From contig NZ_CP100350.1 in NCBI RefSeq assembly GCF_024204685.1, positions 992,001 to 1,056,000 on the forward strand: a stretch of DNA of 64,000 bases. Direction: 5' to 3'. A program made the translations under genes and the position numbers. The notes beneath the pieces are model-generated. The model worked only from the letters and a program-made list of their open reading frames with translations, was not told where the DNA came from and did no database searches. This DNA comes from Gilvimarinus sp. DA14 (lineage in GTDB: Bacteria > Pseudomonadota > Gammaproteobacteria > Pseudomonadales > Cellvibrionaceae). Below, piece after piece: positions 27,802 through 35,822 of this stretch (position 1 is its first letter; the number at the start of each line of letters is the position of its first letter).

Positions 27802-27902
27802 ATTATCAGCTACGGCAGCGGCGCTGGCATACAGGCAAAGCTCGGGGCAAAAGCCGAGCGCCGCTGGTATGATGACAAAAAATTTCTCGATAGGGATTGA
27901 TC

Positions 27903-28610
27903 GTGCGTTTATCGTCCGTGCTCTGGCCTCTGTTTTTTCTCAGCCACTGGCTTTTGTGTGGCTTTATTGCCTGGCACCTGTTCGCCAAGGTGGATTTTGC
28001 CTACCCGCTCGCCTACCAGGCCCTGAACATAGAAGAACACATCCAAACCTACGGCCCGCAAAATCGCTACCGCGACGGCTTTGCCAATACCGATGAAGCG
28101 CAACACCTAAGGCTATTTGCCGAGATTAATCAGGCGATTCATCAAGATCCTGCGGCCCTGGCAGACATTACCTATACCACCGAGGCGGGAAGCGCCGAAT
28201 TGCTGCTGCGCCGGGATGAGGTTATTCATTTGCAGGATGTAGCCCGCCTGGTAGAGGGCGTTTACACCCTGGGCTGGGCTTGCCTCGCGCTAAGCTTGCT
28301 CAGCGTTTTAATCTTACACTTCAGGCGCAGTCCGCTACCGCGCGCGCGAAATATCATTGCGGTGTTTACCGGCGTCATTAGTCTCGCCTGTATAAGTGTC
28401 TTGTTGATCGGCCCCAAAAAGGTGTTTTACACATTGCACACCTGGGTTTTTCCTCCGGATCACCCGTGGTTTTTTTACTACCAGGACTCCCTGATGACCA
28501 CTCTGATGAAAGCCCCTGACTTGTTCGGTTTTATTGCCGTGTTGTTATTGCTGCTGTGGATGGCTCTGTGGGGTATTAGCTTACCGATATTGGTGCGCCT
28601 GTGGCGCTGA
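27903..28610 (+). CDS. DUF1461 integral membrane protein
   Basis: About 235 aa starting at a GTG with TAGGG eight bases upstream; a TTG two codons earlier (27897) is the alternative. Four or five hydrophobic segments are visible: LWPLFFLSHWLLCGFIAWHLF, TLGWACLALSLLSVLILHF, IIAVFTGVISLACISVLLI and FGFIAVLLLLLWMALWGISLP. An extracytoplasmic loop contains FPPDHPWFFYYQDSLMTTLM, typical of DUF1461 (TIGR01906-type). Function unknown. It probably follows an independent promoter after dapE. Confidence 0.75.
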   Translation: MRLSSVLWPLFFLSHWLLCGFIAWHLFAKVDFAYPLAYQALNIEEHIQTYGPQNRYRDGFANTDEAQHLRLFAEINQAIHQDPAALADITYTTEAGSAELLLRRDEVIHLQDVARLVEGVYTLGWACLALSLLSVLILHFRRSPLPRARNIIAVFTGVISLACISVLLIGPKKVFYTLHTWVFPPDHPWFFYYQDSLMTTLMKAPDLFGFIAVLLLLLWMALWGISLPILVRLWR

Positions 28611-29395: not shown

Positions 29396-29872
29396 CTAGG
29401 GCTTGGCCAGTTGCTGAGCCTCGTCCCGCAGCTTAGCCCGCACATTCATCAGCACCTTACCGTAGTGATTGTCGCCGCGTTTATCGCGGCCACAGCCCCA
29501 AAAGTAATCGAACTGACTATCTTCCACCAATGTCTCGTTGCCGGTTGCCAGTAACTTCTCGGTAAGCGGCGGATAGCTGCGCATTTTGGTGTACACGGCT
29601 CGGGTCATCACCACGGTTTGCACCTGCTTCCAGTCGCCACGCTTTTTGCGAAACCAACCTTTGGCCGCTTTGCGTGCCGCCATAACACCCGTGGCCTGCC
29701 TTACCTTTTCCTGATCTTCCTCGCGTATAAGTCGCATTGCCAGATAGTAATGCTCAACCGTGGGCCAGTGTTTACCCTCAAGCTCAAACGGGTGGGGTGA
29801 GACACGGCTCAAACCGTCGTCAGGATTTTCCATGGAAAGATACAACGCCTGCTCAGGTGCCGCTGTGAACAT
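29396..29872 (-). CDS. NADAR-domain protein (YbiA-like N-glycosidase)
   Basis: A 158-aa protein covering a single NADAR (DUF1768/YbiA) domain. Its signature is seen as WPTVEHYYLAMRL in the first half and YFWGCGRDKRGDNHYGKVLM near the end. Characterised members cleave the N-glycosidic bond of riboflavin-pathway intermediates (YbiA) or reverse guanine ADP-ribosylation. Here the start codon shares one base with the folA stop codon, so translation is coupled to dihydrofolate reductase. This links it, by inference, to damage control in GTP-derived cofactor metabolism (folate and riboflavin). Confidence 0.85.
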   Translation of the reverse strand: MFTAAPEQALYLSMENPDDGLSRVSPHPFELEGKHWPTVEHYYLAMRLIREEDQEKVRQATGVMAARKAAKGWFRKKRGDWKQVQTVVMTRAVYTKMRSYPPLTEKLLATGNETLVEDSQFDYFWGCGRDKRGDNHYGKVLMNVRAKLRDEAQQLAKP

Positions 29873-30366
29873 CAGACGCCTCCAGGAACGCTGGATTGGC
29901 GCTGCCAGATTTGATAACGGTAATCAATATTGGAATGGAACTGTTGCTCAAAGACCTTATGCAAAAAATCGGGCAACGCCGGAAAACTCACGTCCCCCTC
30001 GGGGCGACACTGAATCACCGACAGATGCAGAGTATCGATATGCGGCAGCAACTGCCGATATATCTGGCCACCGCCGGCGACCATCAGGTGGTCGGTGCGC
30101 TGTGACATCGCCTCAAGCGCCTCGTCGATAGAGGCAAACACGACCACAGAGTCGTCTTCTGCCACCGCTTTAGTACGCGAGACCACGGCATAGCGCCGAT
30201 TGGGCAGCTTTCCCATGGACTCGAAGGTGGTGCGCCCCACCAATAGCCATTGATTAAACGTCAGCGCTTTGAACAATAATTGTTCGCCCTTGGCCTGCCA
30301 GGGGATATCTGCACCGGCCCCGATTACACCATTCTCGGCGCAGGCGGCCATCATTGATAATTTCAC
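29872..30366 (-). CDS. folA: Dihydrofolate reductase, DfrA1-like
   Basis: A 164-aa dihydrofolate reductase that makes tetrahydrofolate from dihydrofolate and NADPH. The N-terminus is MKLSMMAACAENGVIG, followed by DIPWQAKGEQLLFKA, NQWLLVGRTTFESMGKLPNR, AGGGQIYRQLLP and SNIDYRYQIWQ. The acidic active-site residue is E28, not the Asp of E. coli FolA. From memory this sequence follows the integron-encoded trimethoprim-resistant DfrA1 much more closely than enterobacterial FolA, for example in PW.AKGEQLLFKA, NQWLLVGR.TFESMG.LPNR.YAV and SNI.Y.YQIWQ. No attC-like recombination site is apparent on either side, and the gene is coupled to NADAR, so it looks chromosomal rather than a captured cassette. 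Confidence 0.93.
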   Translation of the reverse strand: MKLSMMAACAENGVIGAGADIPWQAKGEQLLFKALTFNQWLLVGRTTFESMGKLPNRRYAVVSRTKAVAEDDSVVVFASIDEALEAMSQRTDHLMVAGGGQIYRQLLPHIDTLHLSVIQCRPEGDVSFPALPDFLHKVFEQQFHSNIDYRYQIWQRQSSVPGGV

Positions 30367-30620: not shown

Positions 30621-31376
30621 ATGACCTATTGCGTTGCCATCACCATGAATGCCGGATTGGTATTCTGCTCTGACTCACGTACCAATGCCGGGGTTGACCA
30701 AGTCAGCACCTACGGCAAGATGTACCATTACAGCGTGACGGGTGAAAGGGAGTTTGTGATCTTATCCGCGGGCAATCTGGCCACTACCCAGGCCGTGGTG
30801 TCTCAGGTTAAACGCGATATTCGCGACAATGCGGCCACCAGCTTAAAAACCGTACCGGATATCAGCGAAGCGGCGAGCTATTTGGGCGAGATCAATCGCC
30901 TGGAGCAAGATAAACACGCCTCCGGAGGTGGCCCCAACGGCGGTATGAGCTTCGAGGCCAGCTTTATTATTGGCGGTCAGATAGCCGGTGACAAACCCCG
31001 CTTGGCGATGGTTTACCCACAGGGCAATCACATCACCACCTCCAAAGACACACCTTACCTGCAAATTGGCGAGAGCAAATACGGCAAACCGATCCTCGAC
31101 CGGATTCTGACCGCTGCTACCAGTTTAGAGAATGCCGCGCGCTGCGCTCTGGTATCCATGGATTCGACCATGCGCAGTAACCTGACTGTAGGCCCGCCAA
31201 TTGAGCTTGCCATCTACAATGCCGACAGTTTTTCACTACAGCGGTTTCGCTTTGACGATGATGACGAATACCTGCGCGAGCTGAAAAAAGCCTGGGACCA
31301 GTACTTAAACGAAGCCTTCGACCGCCTGCCCCCGCTTAATTGGGGCGACTCGTTACAATCCGATGAACAAGCCTGA
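30621..31376 (+). CDS. Anbu proteasome-like peptidase (proteasome-type protease)
   Basis: A 251-aa Ntn hydrolase. Removal of Met would expose Thr in MTYCVAITMNAGLVFCSDSRTNAGVD, matching the N-terminal nucleophile of Anbu (COG3484, ancestral beta subunit). The LSAGNLATTQ and GGQIAGDKPRL segments fit the proteasome beta fold. Anbu proteins assemble into open helical or lock-washer particles; their substrates are unknown. The usual genomic partners (ATP-grasp COG2308, alpha-E COG2307, zincin) lie on the opposite strand immediately downstream. The gene's last 41 bases overlap the end of the metallopeptidase gene. No obvious ribosome binding site precedes the ATG. Confidence 0.9.
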   Translation: MTYCVAITMNAGLVFCSDSRTNAGVDQVSTYGKMYHYSVTGEREFVILSAGNLATTQAVVSQVKRDIRDNAATSLKTVPDISEAASYLGEINRLEQDKHASGGGPNGGMSFEASFIIGGQIAGDKPRLAMVYPQGNHITTSKDTPYLQIGESKYGKPILDRILTAATSLENAARCALVSMDSTMRSNLTVGPPIELAIYNADSFSLQRFRFDDDDEYLRELKKAWDQYLNEAFDRLPPLNWGDSLQSDEQA

Positions 31377-32355
31377 GTTTATCGCTGATAGCCGGCGTAA
31401 TCACAAAAGGATAGGCATCGCCTAACCCCATACTGCGATTGAGCGCATTGAGTGACACGGATAACTCCAGCCAATGCGCCAACAGTGAATCCATACTGTT
31501 AAAGTCAATCTCGCCTTTTAGTAGCCCAAATGAGCGGGCCGTTTCCAATGTATCGACTATGTGCAGGTAATGGGCCCAGGTTTCGGCCCAGTCCTCCATT
31601 GGGTGTGACTGGGCGTAGTGACTGATATAACTCTGCTGCCAATTGTCACTGACCGGTGTCTGGTAGTGCGCCTTCAGCGCCTGCTGATAATCCAGATTCG
31701 GGTCGCCAAACAAGCGGCAAAACTCATCCAGCCACGGCGAATCGGCCACCAGTAATTCATAGTAATAATGGCCGATTTCATGTCGAAAGTGGCCGAGAAT
31801 AGTACGGTAGTGCTCGCCCAATTCGAGACGGGTTTTTTCTCGATACGCGTCGTCTGCCTCAGCCAAATTAATCGTAATCAACCCAAGGCTGTGCCCGGTT
31901 GCGACAAAAGATTCGGCCACCGCTGGGTTACTGCGACTGTCCTCCAAAAACTCGAACGCCAGGCGCAGGTTTTTATCGTTGGCCGGAGTCAGGTTAAGCC
32001 CCATGGACAGCAGCGAGTAGATCAAATGCCGTTTCGCGGCTTCAAGTTTTGCCCATTGAGTGACGTTATCAGCGTGAGATAAGTCCGGCACAGTATCGTT
32101 TAGACGACAGCTTAAACAGTACGGCTCTGAGTCGTGTTCGTGCAACAGCCAATTACATGCACCGTAATCATAGTGATTTTTACAATAGCGATAGCGTGTG
32201 CCATCGGCTGAGGTCAGGGCCGAATCCCCTTCACTAGAATCCAGACTCAACATTTGCATTTGCTGCGGTGCAAATCCCAAACGCCGCTGGCAATTAAGGC
32301 ACTGGGTGTTGCGAAAAAACACCCGCGCGCCGCAGCGACAATAAAAATCCTTCAC
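31336..32355 (-). CDS. Zinc-ribbon metallopeptidase (DUF2248 / Peptidase_Mx-like)
   Basis: A 339-aa protein. The N-terminal zinc ribbon has Cys6, Cys8, Cys19 and Cys22; a second cysteine set lies at 58, 67, 80 and 83 (HYDYGACNW, EPYCLSC). The zincin motif HEIGH is at 192-196 (FRHEIGHYYYE), with a plausible third metal ligand in the later MEDWAETWAHYLHI segment. It is therefore predicted to be an active metallopeptidase of the COG4307 type. The start overlaps the alpha-E stop by four bases, so it is the third gene of the ATP-grasp/alpha-E operon. Its 3' end overlaps Anbu tail-to-tail. Role unknown; processing of the peptide made by the ATP-grasp protein is a reasonable guess. Confidence 0.85.
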   Translation of the reverse strand: MKDFYCRCGARVFFRNTQCLNCQRRLGFAPQQMQMLSLDSSEGDSALTSADGTRYRYCKNHYDYGACNWLLHEHDSEPYCLSCRLNDTVPDLSHADNVTQWAKLEAAKRHLIYSLLSMGLNLTPANDKNLRLAFEFLEDSRSNPAVAESFVATGHSLGLITINLAEADDAYREKTRLELGEHYRTILGHFRHEIGHYYYELLVADSPWLDEFCRLFGDPNLDYQQALKAHYQTPVSDNWQQSYISHYAQSHPMEDWAETWAHYLHIVDTLETARSFGLLKGEIDFNSMDSLLAHWLELSVSLNALNRSMGLGDAYPFVITPAISDKLRLVHRIVTSRPN

Positions 32356-33305
32356 GCGCTAACCTGCACTTGCGGCAAAAACCAAGTAGCAGCAATGGCC
32401 TGATGAATTGCGGCGATCTCGGATTGCACCGTATCGATATAATCGTGCAGCCCGGAGTCCATCAAGGCCGCAAAGTCAGCGCCTTTTAACTGTCGCCGTA
32501 ATGCAGCTACTTCATGCAACGCTTGATCGCTGTTAGGCAACTTGGCAAAACAGTCTGTCAGCTCTGACAAACAGTGTTCTACCGCGCGGGGAAATAGCGG
32601 ATCTTGAAATAAGAACATCACCACGTCCTCGGCATTAACTCTGTCCAGCACATGCTGACGATACATCTGATAGCCACTTAATGAGCGCAACACGCTCATC
32701 CATAAAATATTACTGTAGGGTTCATTGGCACTGTTATCTTCAACGGCTTTGGGCAGAATACGGCTGGCCCCTACATCGACAATGCGCGAGGTCATATCCG
32801 CTCGCTCAAGGTTGCGCCCCAGGCGAATAAAGCTGTAAGCATCGTTTTGACTCATACAGCCTGCCAGCATACCGGTAAACTGCTGCACACGCTGAATCAC
32901 AGCTTCAAGCAGTAAATGCCGCTCGCGCCTGGCGACAGCGCCGGAGGCGTAATCATTTAAATACCAATAGGTGTCGTTGATCAGCTCGTAGACCTCCGAG
33001 GGCATGATCTCGCGGGTAATACGTGCGTTTTCCCGGGCGTTGGCCATTGACGTTAAAAGCGAGCTGGGATTGTGGGTGTCGGCCAGCATAAACCGCATCA
33101 CGCTGCGCTCGTCGGCATTTTGCGTATCGCGGGAAAAGTAATCGTCCAGGCCCATAATTTCTACCAGGGTGCCCCACCCCACGCTGACGCCGCGCGGTAA
33201 ATCCAACAACAGCTTGGTGTTTACATTGATCAGGCGAGCGGCATTTTCACACCGCTCCATGTAGCGTCCCATCCAGTAAATTCGCTCTGCGACTCGAGAT
33301 AACAT
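32352..33305 (-). CDS. Alpha-E domain protein (DUF403)
   Basis: A 317-aa, almost entirely alpha-helical protein beginning MLSRVAERIYWMGRYMERCENAARL, the hallmark of the alpha-E (COG2307) family. No catalytic motif is known for it. It is translationally coupled on both sides: its start shares a base with the ATP-grasp stop and its end overlaps the metallopeptidase start. Families of this kind almost always accompany circularly permuted ATP-grasp ligases and are thought to act with them in forming an amide or peptide product. Confidence 0.9.
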   Translation of the reverse strand: MLSRVAERIYWMGRYMERCENAARLINVNTKLLLDLPRGVSVGWGTLVEIMGLDDYFSRDTQNADERSVMRFMLADTHNPSSLLTSMANARENARITREIMPSEVYELINDTYWYLNDYASGAVARRERHLLLEAVIQRVQQFTGMLAGCMSQNDAYSFIRLGRNLERADMTSRIVDVGASRILPKAVEDNSANEPYSNILWMSVLRSLSGYQMYRQHVLDRVNAEDVVMFLFQDPLFPRAVEHCLSELTDCFAKLPNSDQALHEVAALRRQLKGADFAALMDSGLHDYIDTVQSEIAAIHQAIAATWFLPQVQVSA

Positions 33306-34759
33306 TATTTGTCCTCCTCAACCACGACCCAGGTATCTTGACTGCCGCCGCCTTGCGACGAGTTGACCACATAGGAGCCTTTGCGCATGGCCACTCGGGT
33401 CAACCCCCCCGCGGTCACCGAACTGTGACGTCCCTGCAAAACAAAAGGTCGCAAATCGATATGCCTAGGCTCAGCGTTTTTACTGCCAATAATGGGTGTT
33501 GTCGATAGTGAGATTAACGGTTGTGCCATGTAGTTACGAGGCTGGGCTTTGATGCGCGCTGCGAATTCCTCACGCTCTTTCTTGCTCGACTGGGGGCCTA
33601 TCAACATGCCGTAACCGCCAGACTCATTGGCCGGCTTAACCACTAACTTATCGAGATTTTCCAGCACGTAATCGCGCTGCTTTTTATCCACACATAAGTA
33701 GCTGGGCACATTGGGCAGTATAGGGTCTTCACCCAGATAATACTTAATCATCTGTGGCACGTAGGTATAGATGACCTTGTCGTCGGCCACGCCGGCACCC
33801 GGTGCATTAGCAATCGCCACATTGCCTTTAAGCCAGGCCCGCATCAGCCCCGGCACCCCTAATACCGAATCGGGGTTGAACATTTGCGGGTCGAGAAACA
33901 GGTCGTCGATACGGCGATAAATCACATCCACCCGCGCCAAACCATTGATGGTGCGCATAAACACATGATCATCTTCAACCACCAGGTCGCTGCCCTCTAC
34001 CAGCTCTACCCCCATTTGCTGCGCAAGATAGGAGTGCTCAAAATAGGCTGAGTTGTAGATACCGGGGGTTAGTACGACAATTTCGGGAAACTCCAGCGGT
34101 CGGGGCGAAATAGCGGCCAGGGTGTCGAACAGCTGGCTCGGATATTCGGTAACCGGCAGAATATTGTGGTTTTCAAACAATTCGGGAAAAATGCGTTTGG
34201 TGACTTTGCGGTTCTCCAGCATATAAGACACGCCAGAAGGCACCCGCAAATTATCTTCCAGCACATAAAAGCGACCATCGTTATCGCGAATCAAATCGCT
34301 GCCACAAATATGTGCCCAAACACCTAATGCAGGCTTCATCCCCACGCATTCAGGGCGAAAATTAACTGAATCGGCCAACAGCTCCGCTGGCAGCACTTTG
34401 TCTTTGACAATGCGCTGTTCGTTATAGACGTCGTCGATAAAGCAGTTGAGCGCTTGCAGGCGTTGGATCAGCCCCTTTTCGGTGTGCAACCACTCTTTAT
34501 GCGCGATCACCCGCGGAATGATATCGAAGGGCCAGGCGCGGTCGATATTGCCCGCCTCCGAATAGACAGTAAACGAGATGCCCATGGTTTTAATGGCAAG
34601 CTCCGCCGAGTGTTTGCGCTCGGCGATCTCTTCACTGCTAAGCCCCGCCAAATGCTTCGCCAGCTGCCGCGCCACCTTGCGTGGATGCCCTGGTGAGCTG
34701 ATCAATTCATCGTAGAAATCGCCGCTGTGATAGTCACGCCAGTTAATTTCCATAGCCAC
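33305..34759 (-). CDS. Circularly permuted ATP-grasp protein (COG2308)
   Basis: A 484-aa protein of the type-2 circularly permuted ATP-grasp family. Conserved segments include LEDNLRVPSGVSYMLENR, PGIYNSAYFEHSYLAQQMGVELVEG, KPANESGGYGMLIGP, PRHIDLRPFVL and MRKGSYVVNSSQGGGSQDTW. These supply the ATP and Mg sites expected of a carboxylate-amine ligase. It is first in the tightly coupled ATP-grasp/alpha-E/metallopeptidase operon opposite Anbu. The product is unknown; published comparative analysis of such operons proposed a small peptide or amide tag. Confidence 0.9.
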   Translation of the reverse strand: MAMEINWRDYHSGDFYDELISSPGHPRKVARQLAKHLAGLSSEEIAERKHSAELAIKTMGISFTVYSEAGNIDRAWPFDIIPRVIAHKEWLHTEKGLIQRLQALNCFIDDVYNEQRIVKDKVLPAELLADSVNFRPECVGMKPALGVWAHICGSDLIRDNDGRFYVLEDNLRVPSGVSYMLENRKVTKRIFPELFENHNILPVTEYPSQLFDTLAAISPRPLEFPEIVVLTPGIYNSAYFEHSYLAQQMGVELVEGSDLVVEDDHVFMRTINGLARVDVIYRRIDDLFLDPQMFNPDSVLGVPGLMRAWLKGNVAIANAPGAGVADDKVIYTYVPQMIKYYLGEDPILPNVPSYLCVDKKQRDYVLENLDKLVVKPANESGGYGMLIGPQSSKKEREEFAARIKAQPRNYMAQPLISLSTTPIIGSKNAEPRHIDLRPFVLQGRHSSVTAGGLTRVAMRKGSYVVNSSQGGGSQDTWVVVEEDK

Positions 34760-34824
34760 TCCCGACTGATTAACCTGATTACGCCACTAGAGCAGCATAA
34801 GTCAGGCCAGCGTGACTGGCAAAA

Positions 34825-35493
34825 TTATTCCGGCGGATCTAAGTGGGTAGCGGTACTGGTATTAACCCTAAACCAGCCGGCAATACTGTAGCGCTCGCGA
34901 TGGGCGGGTAACACCTCGTGGGGAAAGTCCTCACTGAGAAAGACCACCAAACGCCCGCCTTGGGGCACTATCGCTTCCATTAATGTCTTATCCGCCCTGT
35001 CATAGAGCAAAAGCTCGCCGCCATCGGATTCACGCCAATTCTGGTTGAGGTAAAACACAGTGGATAACACCCGGTTTGAGCGCCCTTTAAAAGCGTCCCA
35101 GTGTTTTTTATAAAATGCGCCCACGGGGTAATACGCTAGGTGGCTTTCGTAATCGAACAAGCCCATAAACAGGCGTCGGTTTAGACCATGGCGAATCGAT
35201 GCCATGGTATCGAGAAAAAAAGCGGCCGCGCCGGTGCGCCCCTCAAGCCAGCAGATGCGATCGCCACGCACCTGGCGGGCAATGGTAAAATCTTCCTGGC
35301 GGCCGATACCGGCATTTTTAAACCGGCAATCGGGGTGCTCAAACTCGGCCCTTAAAGAGGCTACCGCGGCCGGACAAAACACATCATCCAAAATGGCATA
35401 GCCGTGCTCGGTGAGTTGATCAGCTAACTCATCGAGAAACAACTCATCGACGCGGGAGGTAAATTTTTGATGCACAAGCGGGCTAATCGTCAC
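34825..35493 (-). CDS. 2-oxoglutarate/Fe(II)-dependent dioxygenase (prolyl-hydroxylase-like)
   Basis: About 222 aa from GTG 35493, which has AGGA seven bases upstream; the frame stays open further upstream but that part is cysteine-rich and unlike the family. Iron ligands are H131 and D133 (KKHWDAFKG) and H192 (FPHEVLPA), and R201 or a nearby Arg (HRERYSIAGWFR) binds 2-oxoglutarate. SDGGELLLYD is typical of P4H-like oxygenases that hydroxylate proteins. It lies 65 bases upstream of the ATP-grasp gene on the same strand and may be co-transcribed, but the family is widespread and the link is unproven. Confidence 0.85.
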   Translation of the reverse strand: MTISPLVHQKFTSRVDELFLDELADQLTEHGYAILDDVFCPAAVASLRAEFEHPDCRFKNAGIGRQEDFTIARQVRGDRICWLEGRTGAAAFFLDTMASIRHGLNRRLFMGLFDYESHLAYYPVGAFYKKHWDAFKGRSNRVLSTVFYLNQNWRESDGGELLLYDRADKTLMEAIVPQGGRLVVFLSEDFPHEVLPAHRERYSIAGWFRVNTSTATHLDPPE

Positions 35494-35561
35494 ACAGTAT
35501 CCTCGGAAGCAGGAGCAGCTTATACCCTCGCTGGTATCAATGCGCAAGTGAAAGCTAACCA

Positions 35562-35822
35562 ATGAAACTAAAAGAGAGGTTTATCGCCTACTGTTCGGTA
35601 CCCCTGGCGCAGAGCTTTAAACAGTTTCGCCTGGGCGCGGTACTGTTTTTTATCGGCTTACTCGTGGTGTATTTGGCCTCACAACTGCTCGCTCCCTCTC
35701 TGCAGCAAGAGCTGGCAACTCTAGCCGGCCTGTGTGTTATCGCGGTGGGGTTCGCGATTGCCATTTGCGCGCAGATGCGCATGCTGGCTTCGCGCTTGCT
35801 GGCGTTTTGGCGCAAACGTTAA
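35562..35822 (+). CDS. Small two-helix membrane protein, unknown
   Basis: An 86-aa protein with two transmembrane helices (about 24-44, [20 protein letters not shown], and 50-70, [19 protein letters not shown]), a basic N-terminus and a basic tail ([10 protein letters not shown]). Not recognised. It is divergent from the dioxygenase gene and its stop overlaps the rsmJ stop by four bases. The ribosome binding site is weak, but the clean two-helix pattern argues for a real gene. Confidence 0.6.

Follow-up and report, generated by a model that had tools for sequence, protein, structure and literature searches.

A zinc-ribbon metallopeptidase recurs in Anbu/COG2308/alpha-E gene cassettes and may stand in for the transglutaminase-like protein

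The four-gene cassette described here, from a window of 64,000 nucleotides of the marine bacterium Gilvimarinus sp. DA14 (the whole stretch of DNA that was analysed), is a zincin-bearing form of the known Anbu/COG2308/alpha-E ligase system, and this form recurs. An initial annotation had described a proteasome-like protease with threonine after the initiator methionine on the plus strand, facing three overlapping minus-strand genes for an ATP-grasp, an alpha-E protein and a zinc-ribbon protein with a HEIGH motif; open reading frames and Pfam matches agree with this throughout, as do PDB matches for Anbu (Table 1). The further proposal that the metallopeptidase replaces the transglutaminase as second hydrolase appears partly supported by sequence comparison, while mutual exclusion of the two proteins as a general rule is not supported.

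Table 1. Features of the cassette, numbered by position in the window.
Feature	Position	Strand	Basis or remark
Anbu (ancestral beta-subunit, proteasome-like Ntn-hydrolase)	30621..31376	+	ORF, Pfam Proteasome 1e-5
Zincin: zinc ribbon and gluzincin-like metallopeptidase, 339 aa	31336..32355	-	PF10005 and PF15887 (Peptidase_Mx)
Zincin HEIGH (HExxH) zinc site, residues 192-196	31768..31782	-	H, E, H invariant 27/27
Zincin EDWAE, residues 254-258	31582..31596	-	Glu254, Asp255, Glu258 invariant 27/27
Alpha-E protein	32352..33305	-	PF04168; the genome's sole match
Circularly permuted ATP-grasp (COG2308)	33305..34759	-	PF14403; the genome's sole match
Sigma-54 (-24/-12)-like element TGGCCTGACTTATGCT	34794..34809	-	34 bases 5' of the annotated ATP-grasp start

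The genes are tightly packed, with overlaps of 1 base between ATP-grasp and alpha-E and 4 bases between alpha-E and zincin, and the convergent, tail-to-tail zincin and Anbu genes share 41 bases at their 3' ends. Judged from homologues, the ATG at 34753 is a more probable start for the ATP-grasp than the GTG at 34759. The ATP-grasp assignment draws on CP_ATPgrasp_2 (4e-169, 562.9 bits against a cut-off of 32) and on a match to PDB 3n6x at 9e-160, while the alpha-E protein scores 290.5 bits (2.5e-86) and the zincin 318.5 bits (3e-95) for Peptidase_Mx and 1e-26 for the ribbon. A profile built from 25 Anbus, with the window's at their head, matched five distinct Anbu sequences of the PDB (E 1e-107 to 3.6e-86). 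NCBIfam at E 0.001 returned no match for alpha-E or ATP-grasp, and none of the four proteins matched in the PHROGs and PADLOC searches.

None of the four genes looks decayed, since the conserved columns (the same residue in at least 95% of alignment rows) are retained almost wholly, the window departing from 0 of 29 in alpha-E, 0 of 40 in Anbu, 0 of 57 in the zincin and 1 of 138 in the ATP-grasp. In alpha-E these include the ER motif (E17 R18) and 27 further columns. Thr2, Asp18 and Lys33 of Anbu (Thr1, Asp17 and Lys32 without the methionine) are invariant across 25 aligned Anbus; the key residues are given as the N-terminal Thr, Asp17 and Lys32/33 in the consulted part of PMC6376114. Likewise, H192, E193, H196 and Glu258 of the zincin are invariant in 27 aligned sequences, and little or no variation is seen at the ribbon cysteines; EDWAE likely supplies the third zinc ligand. 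Our literature search found no peptidase assay for a Peptidase_Mx (PF15887) protein.

To place the cassette in a wider setting, we analysed 369 genomes of the window's class, counting 56 full-length zincin places (above 250 bits) and 113 stand-alone COG2308 rows, two of which are pieces of one gene, giving 112 loci, with fused rows of about 850 aa and fragments left out. A stand-alone COG2308 gene lies within 6 kb of 31 of the 56 zincins, spread over 24 sampled families. PF14403 is moreover present in 51 of the 52 genomes with a full-length zincin, as compared to 56 of the 317 others. On a zincin tree of 136 rows (133 distinct; a combined set that may hold a few loci twice over, e.g. L206 and L234), the window's zincin falls inside a starred set of 27 rows, each with a system gene nearby, and wherever an ATP-grasp is near in this set it lies upstream of the zincin (22/22). 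It is very improbable, then, that the genes are chance neighbours with the zincin unrelated to the ligase: although 68 of the 136 zincins have no system gene in their stretch, some of these stretches ending at contig ends, the linkage spans those 24 families and two gene orders, almost all zincin genomes have COG2308, and COG2308 and zincin are both absent from an otherwise syntenic locus of a congener. Clustering of neighbouring genes pointed to no further partner, as each of the 25 largest clusters reaches at most three zincin loci.

In that congener (G404), all four cassette genes are missing from the same site, where dhfr, the oxygenase and rsmJ are retained, and the genome has no COG2308 or zincin match. 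The 5' end of the ATP-grasp survives there as a relic of 35 aa with 80% identity, so the cassette was deleted; this natural deletion offers a ready comparison.

The tightest linkage is between zincin and Anbu. Both are in the stretch at 24 loci, 23 of them convergent, and at 19 the convergent pair lies within 263 bases, with 10 pairs overlapping; at one locus (L081) the pair persists in a 14.7-kb stretch without ATP-grasp. Such an arrangement would suit a zincin that serves as maturation protease for a cassette member, e.g. Anbu, and never acts on the ligase product. We nevertheless regard this as improbable, considering that 8 of the 31 genomes with a COG2308-linked zincin have no Anbu match, that within COG2308 genomes Anbu shows no association with the presence of zincin (38/51 with zincin, 43/56 without), and that Anbu, as the alignment suggests, should need removal of the methionine alone to bare Thr1.

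No transglutaminase-like gene lies within the cassette cluster, and Bact_transglu_N (PF08379) has no match at E 0.001 in the 3.96 Mb genome; at this sensitivity the description of the system as lacking a transglutaminase extends to the whole genome. A transglutaminase of the Anbu kind in another locus of the genome, which would have undercut the proposal, was also sought with PF08379 and PF01841, and none was found. PF01841 gave three matches, one under the family cut-off: judged by their sequences, a TgpA-like membrane protein (666 aa), a TPR-like protein (416 aa) and a third protein of 635 aa.

Across the class we scored a transglutaminase strictly as a PF08379 match of at least 46 bits (73 genomes; 80 lie above the tool's cut-off). 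By this measure it is present in 9 of the 31 genomes with a COG2308-linked zincin, as opposed to 49 of the 56 COG2308 genomes without zincin (p 5e-8), and the anticorrelation persists when each family is represented by a single genome (median p 2e-5) and when all weak matches are counted (15/31 versus 50/56, p 6e-5). In the window's family strict matches separate the two groups fully, 0 of 6 linked-zincin genomes versus 32 of 32, or 2 versus 16 when tallied by genus (p 0.0065), with four of the six holding a PF08379 match of 22-26 bits, below the cut-off. Thus, for this cassette, zincin and transglutaminase do not co-occur in most related genomes, and here the replacement proposal finds support.

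As a general rule, replacement is not supported. In the family, a transglutaminase is present in 9 of 10 genomes whose zincin is exclusively unlinked, and of all 52 genomes with a full-length zincin in the class sample, 24 have a strict and 32 a strict or weak match. Among the best 80 of 468 zincin loci, 18 have a transglutaminase or DUF2126 gene nearby, with Burkholderiales or alphaproteobacteria accounting for 13. Moreover, the large transglutaminase-DUF2126 protein does not differ significantly between zincin loci and others (8/31 versus 35/81, p 0.13), so that a clear deficit is seen for the small stand-alone transglutaminase alone (1/31 versus 25/81, p 0.001). Phylogenetically independent contrasts on an ATP-grasp tree, built without one fragmentary and one fused locus, leaned the same way as the anticorrelation but were not significant (median p 0.375 for zincin at the locus, 0.219 in the genome), the 11 contrasts dividing into 4.1 opposite, 1.0 same and 5.9 without difference. 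This coexistence, together with the contrasts, would be congruent with the zincin being an added third hydrolase with a job of its own, the anticorrelation reflecting shared ancestry of transglutaminase-less lineages. We hold this for a rather unlikely, though appreciable, alternative: the anticorrelation among COG2308 genomes survives the reduction to one genome per family and is complete for strict matches in the window's family, and the zincin label, counting starred branches alone, switches 11 times or more over the ATP-grasp tree and so does not descend as one inherited block. A second hydrolase may not even be obligatory, because seven COG2308 genomes (six when weak matches count) have neither zincin nor transglutaminase, a list that includes one (G209) whose locus L144 matches an in-house transglutaminase profile.

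Upstream of the ATP-grasp, the sigma-54-like element retains 15 of 16 bases in a congener, while a scan of the window allowing two mismatches gave such matches at chance frequency, and no NtrC-like site was found within one mismatch upstream of the window's ATP-grasp. Compared across loci, sigma-54-like scores above 10 occur upstream of 39 of 705 control ORFs, whereas the ATP-grasp has one at 8 of 31 zincin-type loci (p 4e-4) and at 35 of 79 others (p 5e-19); the controls were drawn from these stretches by a mechanical rule, and some of them may not be genes. Zincin loci exceed the controls at three of four thresholds, and three loci of a sister genus score low. A first scan had suggested that zincin-type loci lack the site; over-long ORF starts were trimmed before the final scan, after which zincin and other loci no longer differ significantly (p 0.07 to 0.18 over the four thresholds), and the claim of a regulatory difference was dropped. 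Predicted sigma-54/NtrC-like sites are enriched upstream of the system's ATP-grasp genes, zincin-type included, fitting the published nitrogen-limitation data and pointing to a condition under which to look. In the available parts of the reports, the system's genes in P. putida are induced under nitrogen limitation (PMC7801951, PMC8050072) and the Burkholderia cluster depends on NtrC/sigma-54 (PMC5491218); for P. putida Anbu itself (PP_2685), a clear rise was seen in just one strain out of three (1.12, 4.81, 1.45; PMC7801951).

A 2OG-Fe(II) oxygenase gene 66 bases upstream of the ATP-grasp was considered as a fifth member. It adjoins the ATP-grasp in four of six cassette loci of the family, and also in two transglutaminase genomes (G369, G401). 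However, it is found in 39 of 61 family genomes, the cassette-less congener included, and we rejected it as flank. A phmmer search over 97 sequence sources returned only the window's own stretch.

Aggregated, these findings lead us to favour, if by no wide measure, one functional cassette, a zincin-type variant of the Anbu/COG2308/alpha-E system working as follows. The ATP-grasp with its partner alpha-E would use ATP to form an acyl phosphate to which an amine is joined, yielding a conjugate or peptide-like product, which the zinc-ribbon metallopeptidase would cut or trim in place of the papain-fold transglutaminase-like protein; and Anbu would be a second, Ntn-type hydrolase, with a sigma-54 promoter driving the cassette, probably when nitrogen is limiting. 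We infer the substrate, the directions of the reactions, the role of alpha-E, the equivalence of zincin and transglutaminase and the nitrogen control in this species. As far as the consulted parts of PMC6376114 go, the Yersinia ATP-grasp frees orthophosphate from ATP, while none of the proteasome substrates offered to purified Anbus was cleaved and no specific complex was observed. Structures of Anbu have been solved, and the accessible portions of the literature gave no substrate or function for it.

More tentatively, zincin and transglutaminase-like protein could be interchangeable de-conjugating peptidases of one ligase/Anbu cycle controlled by nitrogen limitation. A zincin standing in for the transglutaminase hints that the usual protein cuts rather than glues, and exchange of a papain-fold protein for an unrelated zinc peptidase within one cassette would confine the roles open to either to hydrolysis. 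If true, the classic Anbu operon's transglutaminase-like protein would be a hydrolase and not a cross-linker, and the system would be a bacterial cycle that makes and breaks a peptide tag or peptide pool with an exchangeable cutter. The swap also offers a clean test, by cross-complementation, of the transglutaminase-like protein's role.

Our search found no published link of the zincin (COG4307, Peptidase_Mx, PF15887, PF10005) to Anbu, and the terms 'zinc' and 'metallo' are absent from two Anbu structure papers; Iyer et al. 2009, reportedly the first description of Anbu gene neighbourhoods, may hold one. With the gluzincin fold group of PPEP (Pro-Pro endopeptidase), MtfA-like proteins and the catalytic domain of lethal factor, the zincin shares a fold resemblance only, at middling Z, and a shared fold shows no function. 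It differs from them in its N-terminal zinc ribbon, in that no signal peptide or delivery domain was noticed, and in belonging to a metabolic-looking cassette on the chromosome.

The pairing of an ATP-grasp ligase with a dedicated protease has a precedent in RimK/RimB, where the target of RimB is the RimK product. According to the part consulted of PMC12239564, RimK is a glutamate ligase and cleavage is by RimB, a dedicated aspartic peptidase. Unlike the window, this pair has an unrelated peptidase fold, another ATP-grasp family, and neither Anbu nor alpha-E. Also related is the transglutaminase-DUF2126 cluster of Burkholderiales and many gammaproteobacteria, often with a fused ATP-grasp-alpha-E, which has the same ligase families and is often adjoined by a zincin of the same Pfam family, but retains the large transglutaminase-DUF2126 protein. 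Where that protein occurs at a COG2308 locus without zincin, only 15 of 35 stretches contain Anbu; of the 18 zincin loci, from the best 80 of 468, that have a transglutaminase or DUF2126 gene nearby, one does. The Anbu operon of Pseudomonas and Yersinia comprises ATP-grasp, alpha-E, a transglutaminase-like protein and Anbu in the consulted parts of PMC6376114 and PMC5666114. Common to both are Anbu, the circularly permuted ATP-grasp (COG2308) and alpha-E in a compact cluster, with sigma-54/NtrC-like upstream sites in the family, whereas the window has a zinc-ribbon metallopeptidase in place of the transglutaminase-like protein, and its Anbu lies on the opposite strand, facing the zincin.

The four-gene feature proposed by the initial annotation is present, with Anbu opposite in strand to ATP-grasp, alpha-E and the zincin. 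By alignment, the columns conserved in relatives are kept by all four proteins, the sole exception being one of 138 in ATP-grasp, and the genome, a single contig of 3.96 Mb, contains one match each to alpha-E, CP-ATP-grasp and Peptidase_Mx. At the search sensitivity used, the claimed lack of a transglutaminase extends to the whole genome, where a family search returned no Bact_transglu_N match and the three Transglut_core matches resemble other kinds of protein. Collectively, the locus is a real, intact and recurrent form of an already described but poorly understood system, one that carries a zincin.

Cassette genes, neighbouring genes and promoter-like element in the window
Feature	Position	Strand	Observation
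Membrane protein	27897-28610	+	Lit lipoprotein transacylase family match, E 2.8e-9
NADAR-domain protein	29396-29872	-	Riboflavin-intermediate N-glycosidase model above cut-off (NCBIfam); anti-phage NADAR family match below cut-off; weak PADLOC match; also in congeners
Dihydrofolate reductase	29872-30366	-	Adjoins Anbu; DfrA1-like family score 258.2 (NCBIfam cut-off 250)
Anbu	30621-31376	+	Cassette member
Zincin	31336-32355	-	Cassette member
Alpha-E	32352-33305	-	Cassette member
ATP-grasp	33305-34759	-	Cassette member
Sigma-54-like element	34794-34809	-	Score 11.1
2OG-Fe(II) oxygenase	34825-35562	-	Directly upstream of ATP-grasp in 4/6 family cassette loci and two transglutaminase genomes; without cassette in congener G404

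Full-length zincins occur at 56 places in 52 of the 369 sampled genomes of the class, and at 31 of these places, spread over 24 families, a stand-alone COG2308 gene lies within 6 kb. The zincin is nearly restricted to COG2308 genomes, PF14403 being found in 51/52 zincin genomes of the class compared with 56/317 others; in the window's family, COG2308 is present in 38 of 61 genomes overall and in 15 of the 16 with a zincin. Neighbourhoods were compared at 112 stand-alone COG2308 loci, 31 with and 81 without zincin, and Anbu was recovered in the stretch at 22 of the former and 37 of the latter (p 0.02, uncorrected for kinship, with several stretches ending at contig ends). Where zincin and Anbu are both present, they converge in 23 of 24 loci, 19 of those with a gap of at most 263 bases, 10 overlapping. 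Two gene orders exist, with ATP-grasp upstream of zincin or the reverse. In the zincin tree (136 rows), the window belongs to a starred set of 27, all with a nearby system gene (20 Anbu, 4 COG2308 only, 3 transglutaminase type), and ATP-grasp is upstream in all 22 rows of this set that have it near. Across the entire tree set, the fetched stretch lacked a system gene at 68 zincins. Among the best 80 of 468 relatives, the closest named match to the window's zincin is that of Gilvimarinus sp. 2_MG-2023 (L173, 61% identity).

Does the zincin replace the transglutaminase, as was originally suggested? Among 107 COG2308 genomes, 24 have both, 27 zincin only, 49 transglutaminase only and 7 neither (p 8.5e-6). 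Transglutaminase is found in 9/31 genomes with a COG2308-linked zincin compared with 49/56 COG2308 genomes without zincin, a contrast that holds at one genome per family (70 families, median p 2e-5) and when weak matches are counted (15/31 and 50/56). In the window's family, strict matches (46 bits or more) occur in none of six linked-zincin genomes and in all 32 other COG2308 genomes, with a genus-level p of 0.0065 because the six represent two genera; in four of the six, the best score is 22-26 bits, below the cut-off.

Other findings weigh against replacement, and the zincin could instead be an added hydrolase with its own job. A transglutaminase is present in 9 of the 10 family genomes and 15 of the 21 class genomes with an unlinked zincin, and 18 of 80 named loci (the best 80 of 468 relatives) have a gene for a transglutaminase or DUF2126 in the neighbourhood of the zincin. 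Of 11 supported pairs contrasted on the ATP-grasp tree (110 rows), 4.1 changed in opposite directions and 1.0 in the same direction, with a median p of 0.375. At the COG2308 loci themselves, only the small stand-alone transglutaminase was under-represented beside the zincin (1/31 zincin loci, 25/81 others, p 0.001); for the large TG-DUF2126 protein the difference was not significant (8/31 and 35/81, p 0.13). We read these results as a tendency of the cassette zincin to stand where the small transglutaminase-like protein would be, a tendency that zincins elsewhere do not share; replacement is well supported in the window's family and suggestive in the class, but is not a universal rule.

Two further arrangements were observed. 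Three genomes of one sampled family (L148, L154, L164) have ATP-grasp, alpha-E and Anbu without a full-length zincin or PF08379 match, possibly a minimal form of the system. In Burkholderiales and alphaproteobacteria loci (L194, L196, L199, L213, L216, L217, L222, L225, L231, L233, L252), a zincin of the same family neighbours a cluster of the transglutaminase-DUF2126 / fused ATP-grasp-alpha-E type, and Anbu is missing from the stretch.

Congener G404 retains the window's order of dapE, lit, dlh, nadar, dhfr, oxygenase and rsmJ but has lost the cassette, and its genome gave no match to COG2308 or the zincin. The 636-base gap holds sequence that aligns with the window starting inside the ATP-grasp gene and running outward (1,040 bases at 75%, the oxygenase among them), and it encodes a 35-residue relic of the ATP-grasp N-terminus (L288 9549-10185; 80% identity, E 1.3e-17). 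Hence, at least ATP-grasp was formerly present and then deleted. Convincing remnants of alpha-E, the zincin and Anbu were not found; from the three sampled cassette-bearing congeners (G000, G372 and G422), we infer that all four were once there. The dihydrofolate reductase is kept in G404 (82%) and therefore looks like a resident chromosomal gene. At the same rsmJ-oxygenase site, the transglutaminase genome G369 carries ATP-grasp and alpha-E, and the sequence retrieved around them contained neither a zincin nor Anbu.

Using a sigma-54 matrix built from the consensus, sites scoring >10 within 300 bases upstream of ATP-grasp were detected at 35/79 non-zincin and 8/31 zincin loci, compared with 39/705 control ORFs drawn from the same stretches. 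The score of the window's element is reached by 3.5% of controls, and 15 of its 16 bases are kept in L173, compared with 39/95 other aligned window bases. A two-mismatch scan of the window gave matches at chance level, and the sigma-54 case therefore rests on conservation and family-wide enrichment. The other five family cassette loci score 10.6 (L272, the L173 locus), 10.3 (L273) and 1.9 to 4.4 (three of a sister genus). Enrichment extends to NtrC-like half-site pairs with one mismatch or fewer (11/31 zincin and 28/79 non-zincin loci, 119/705 controls); none lies upstream of the window's ATP-grasp. These upstream sites fit published nitrogen-limitation data: PMC7801951 ascribes control of the P. 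putida PP_2685-PP_2688 operon to NtrB/NtrC and reports that nitrogen limitation raised its last three genes 11- to 37-fold, with a clear rise of Anbu (PP_2685) in one strain out of three. PMC8050072 has PP_2685 and PP_2688 both elevated on nitrate relative to ammonium, and PMC5491218 describes NtrC/sigma-54 dependence of a cluster in Burkholderia that encodes these domains.

Carboxylate activation is an activity of ATP-grasp enzymes, and in PMC6376114 the Yersinia member frees phosphate from ATP, while Anbu left proteasome substrates uncut and displayed no specific interaction with neighbour proteins. In the favoured mechanism, the ligase and alpha-E would form an amide-linked product, which the zincin would cut instead of the transglutaminase-like protein, with Anbu as a putative second hydrolase. 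In RimK/RimB, described in PMC12239564, an ATP-grasp ligase is likewise served by a dedicated peptidase, which provides a precedent.
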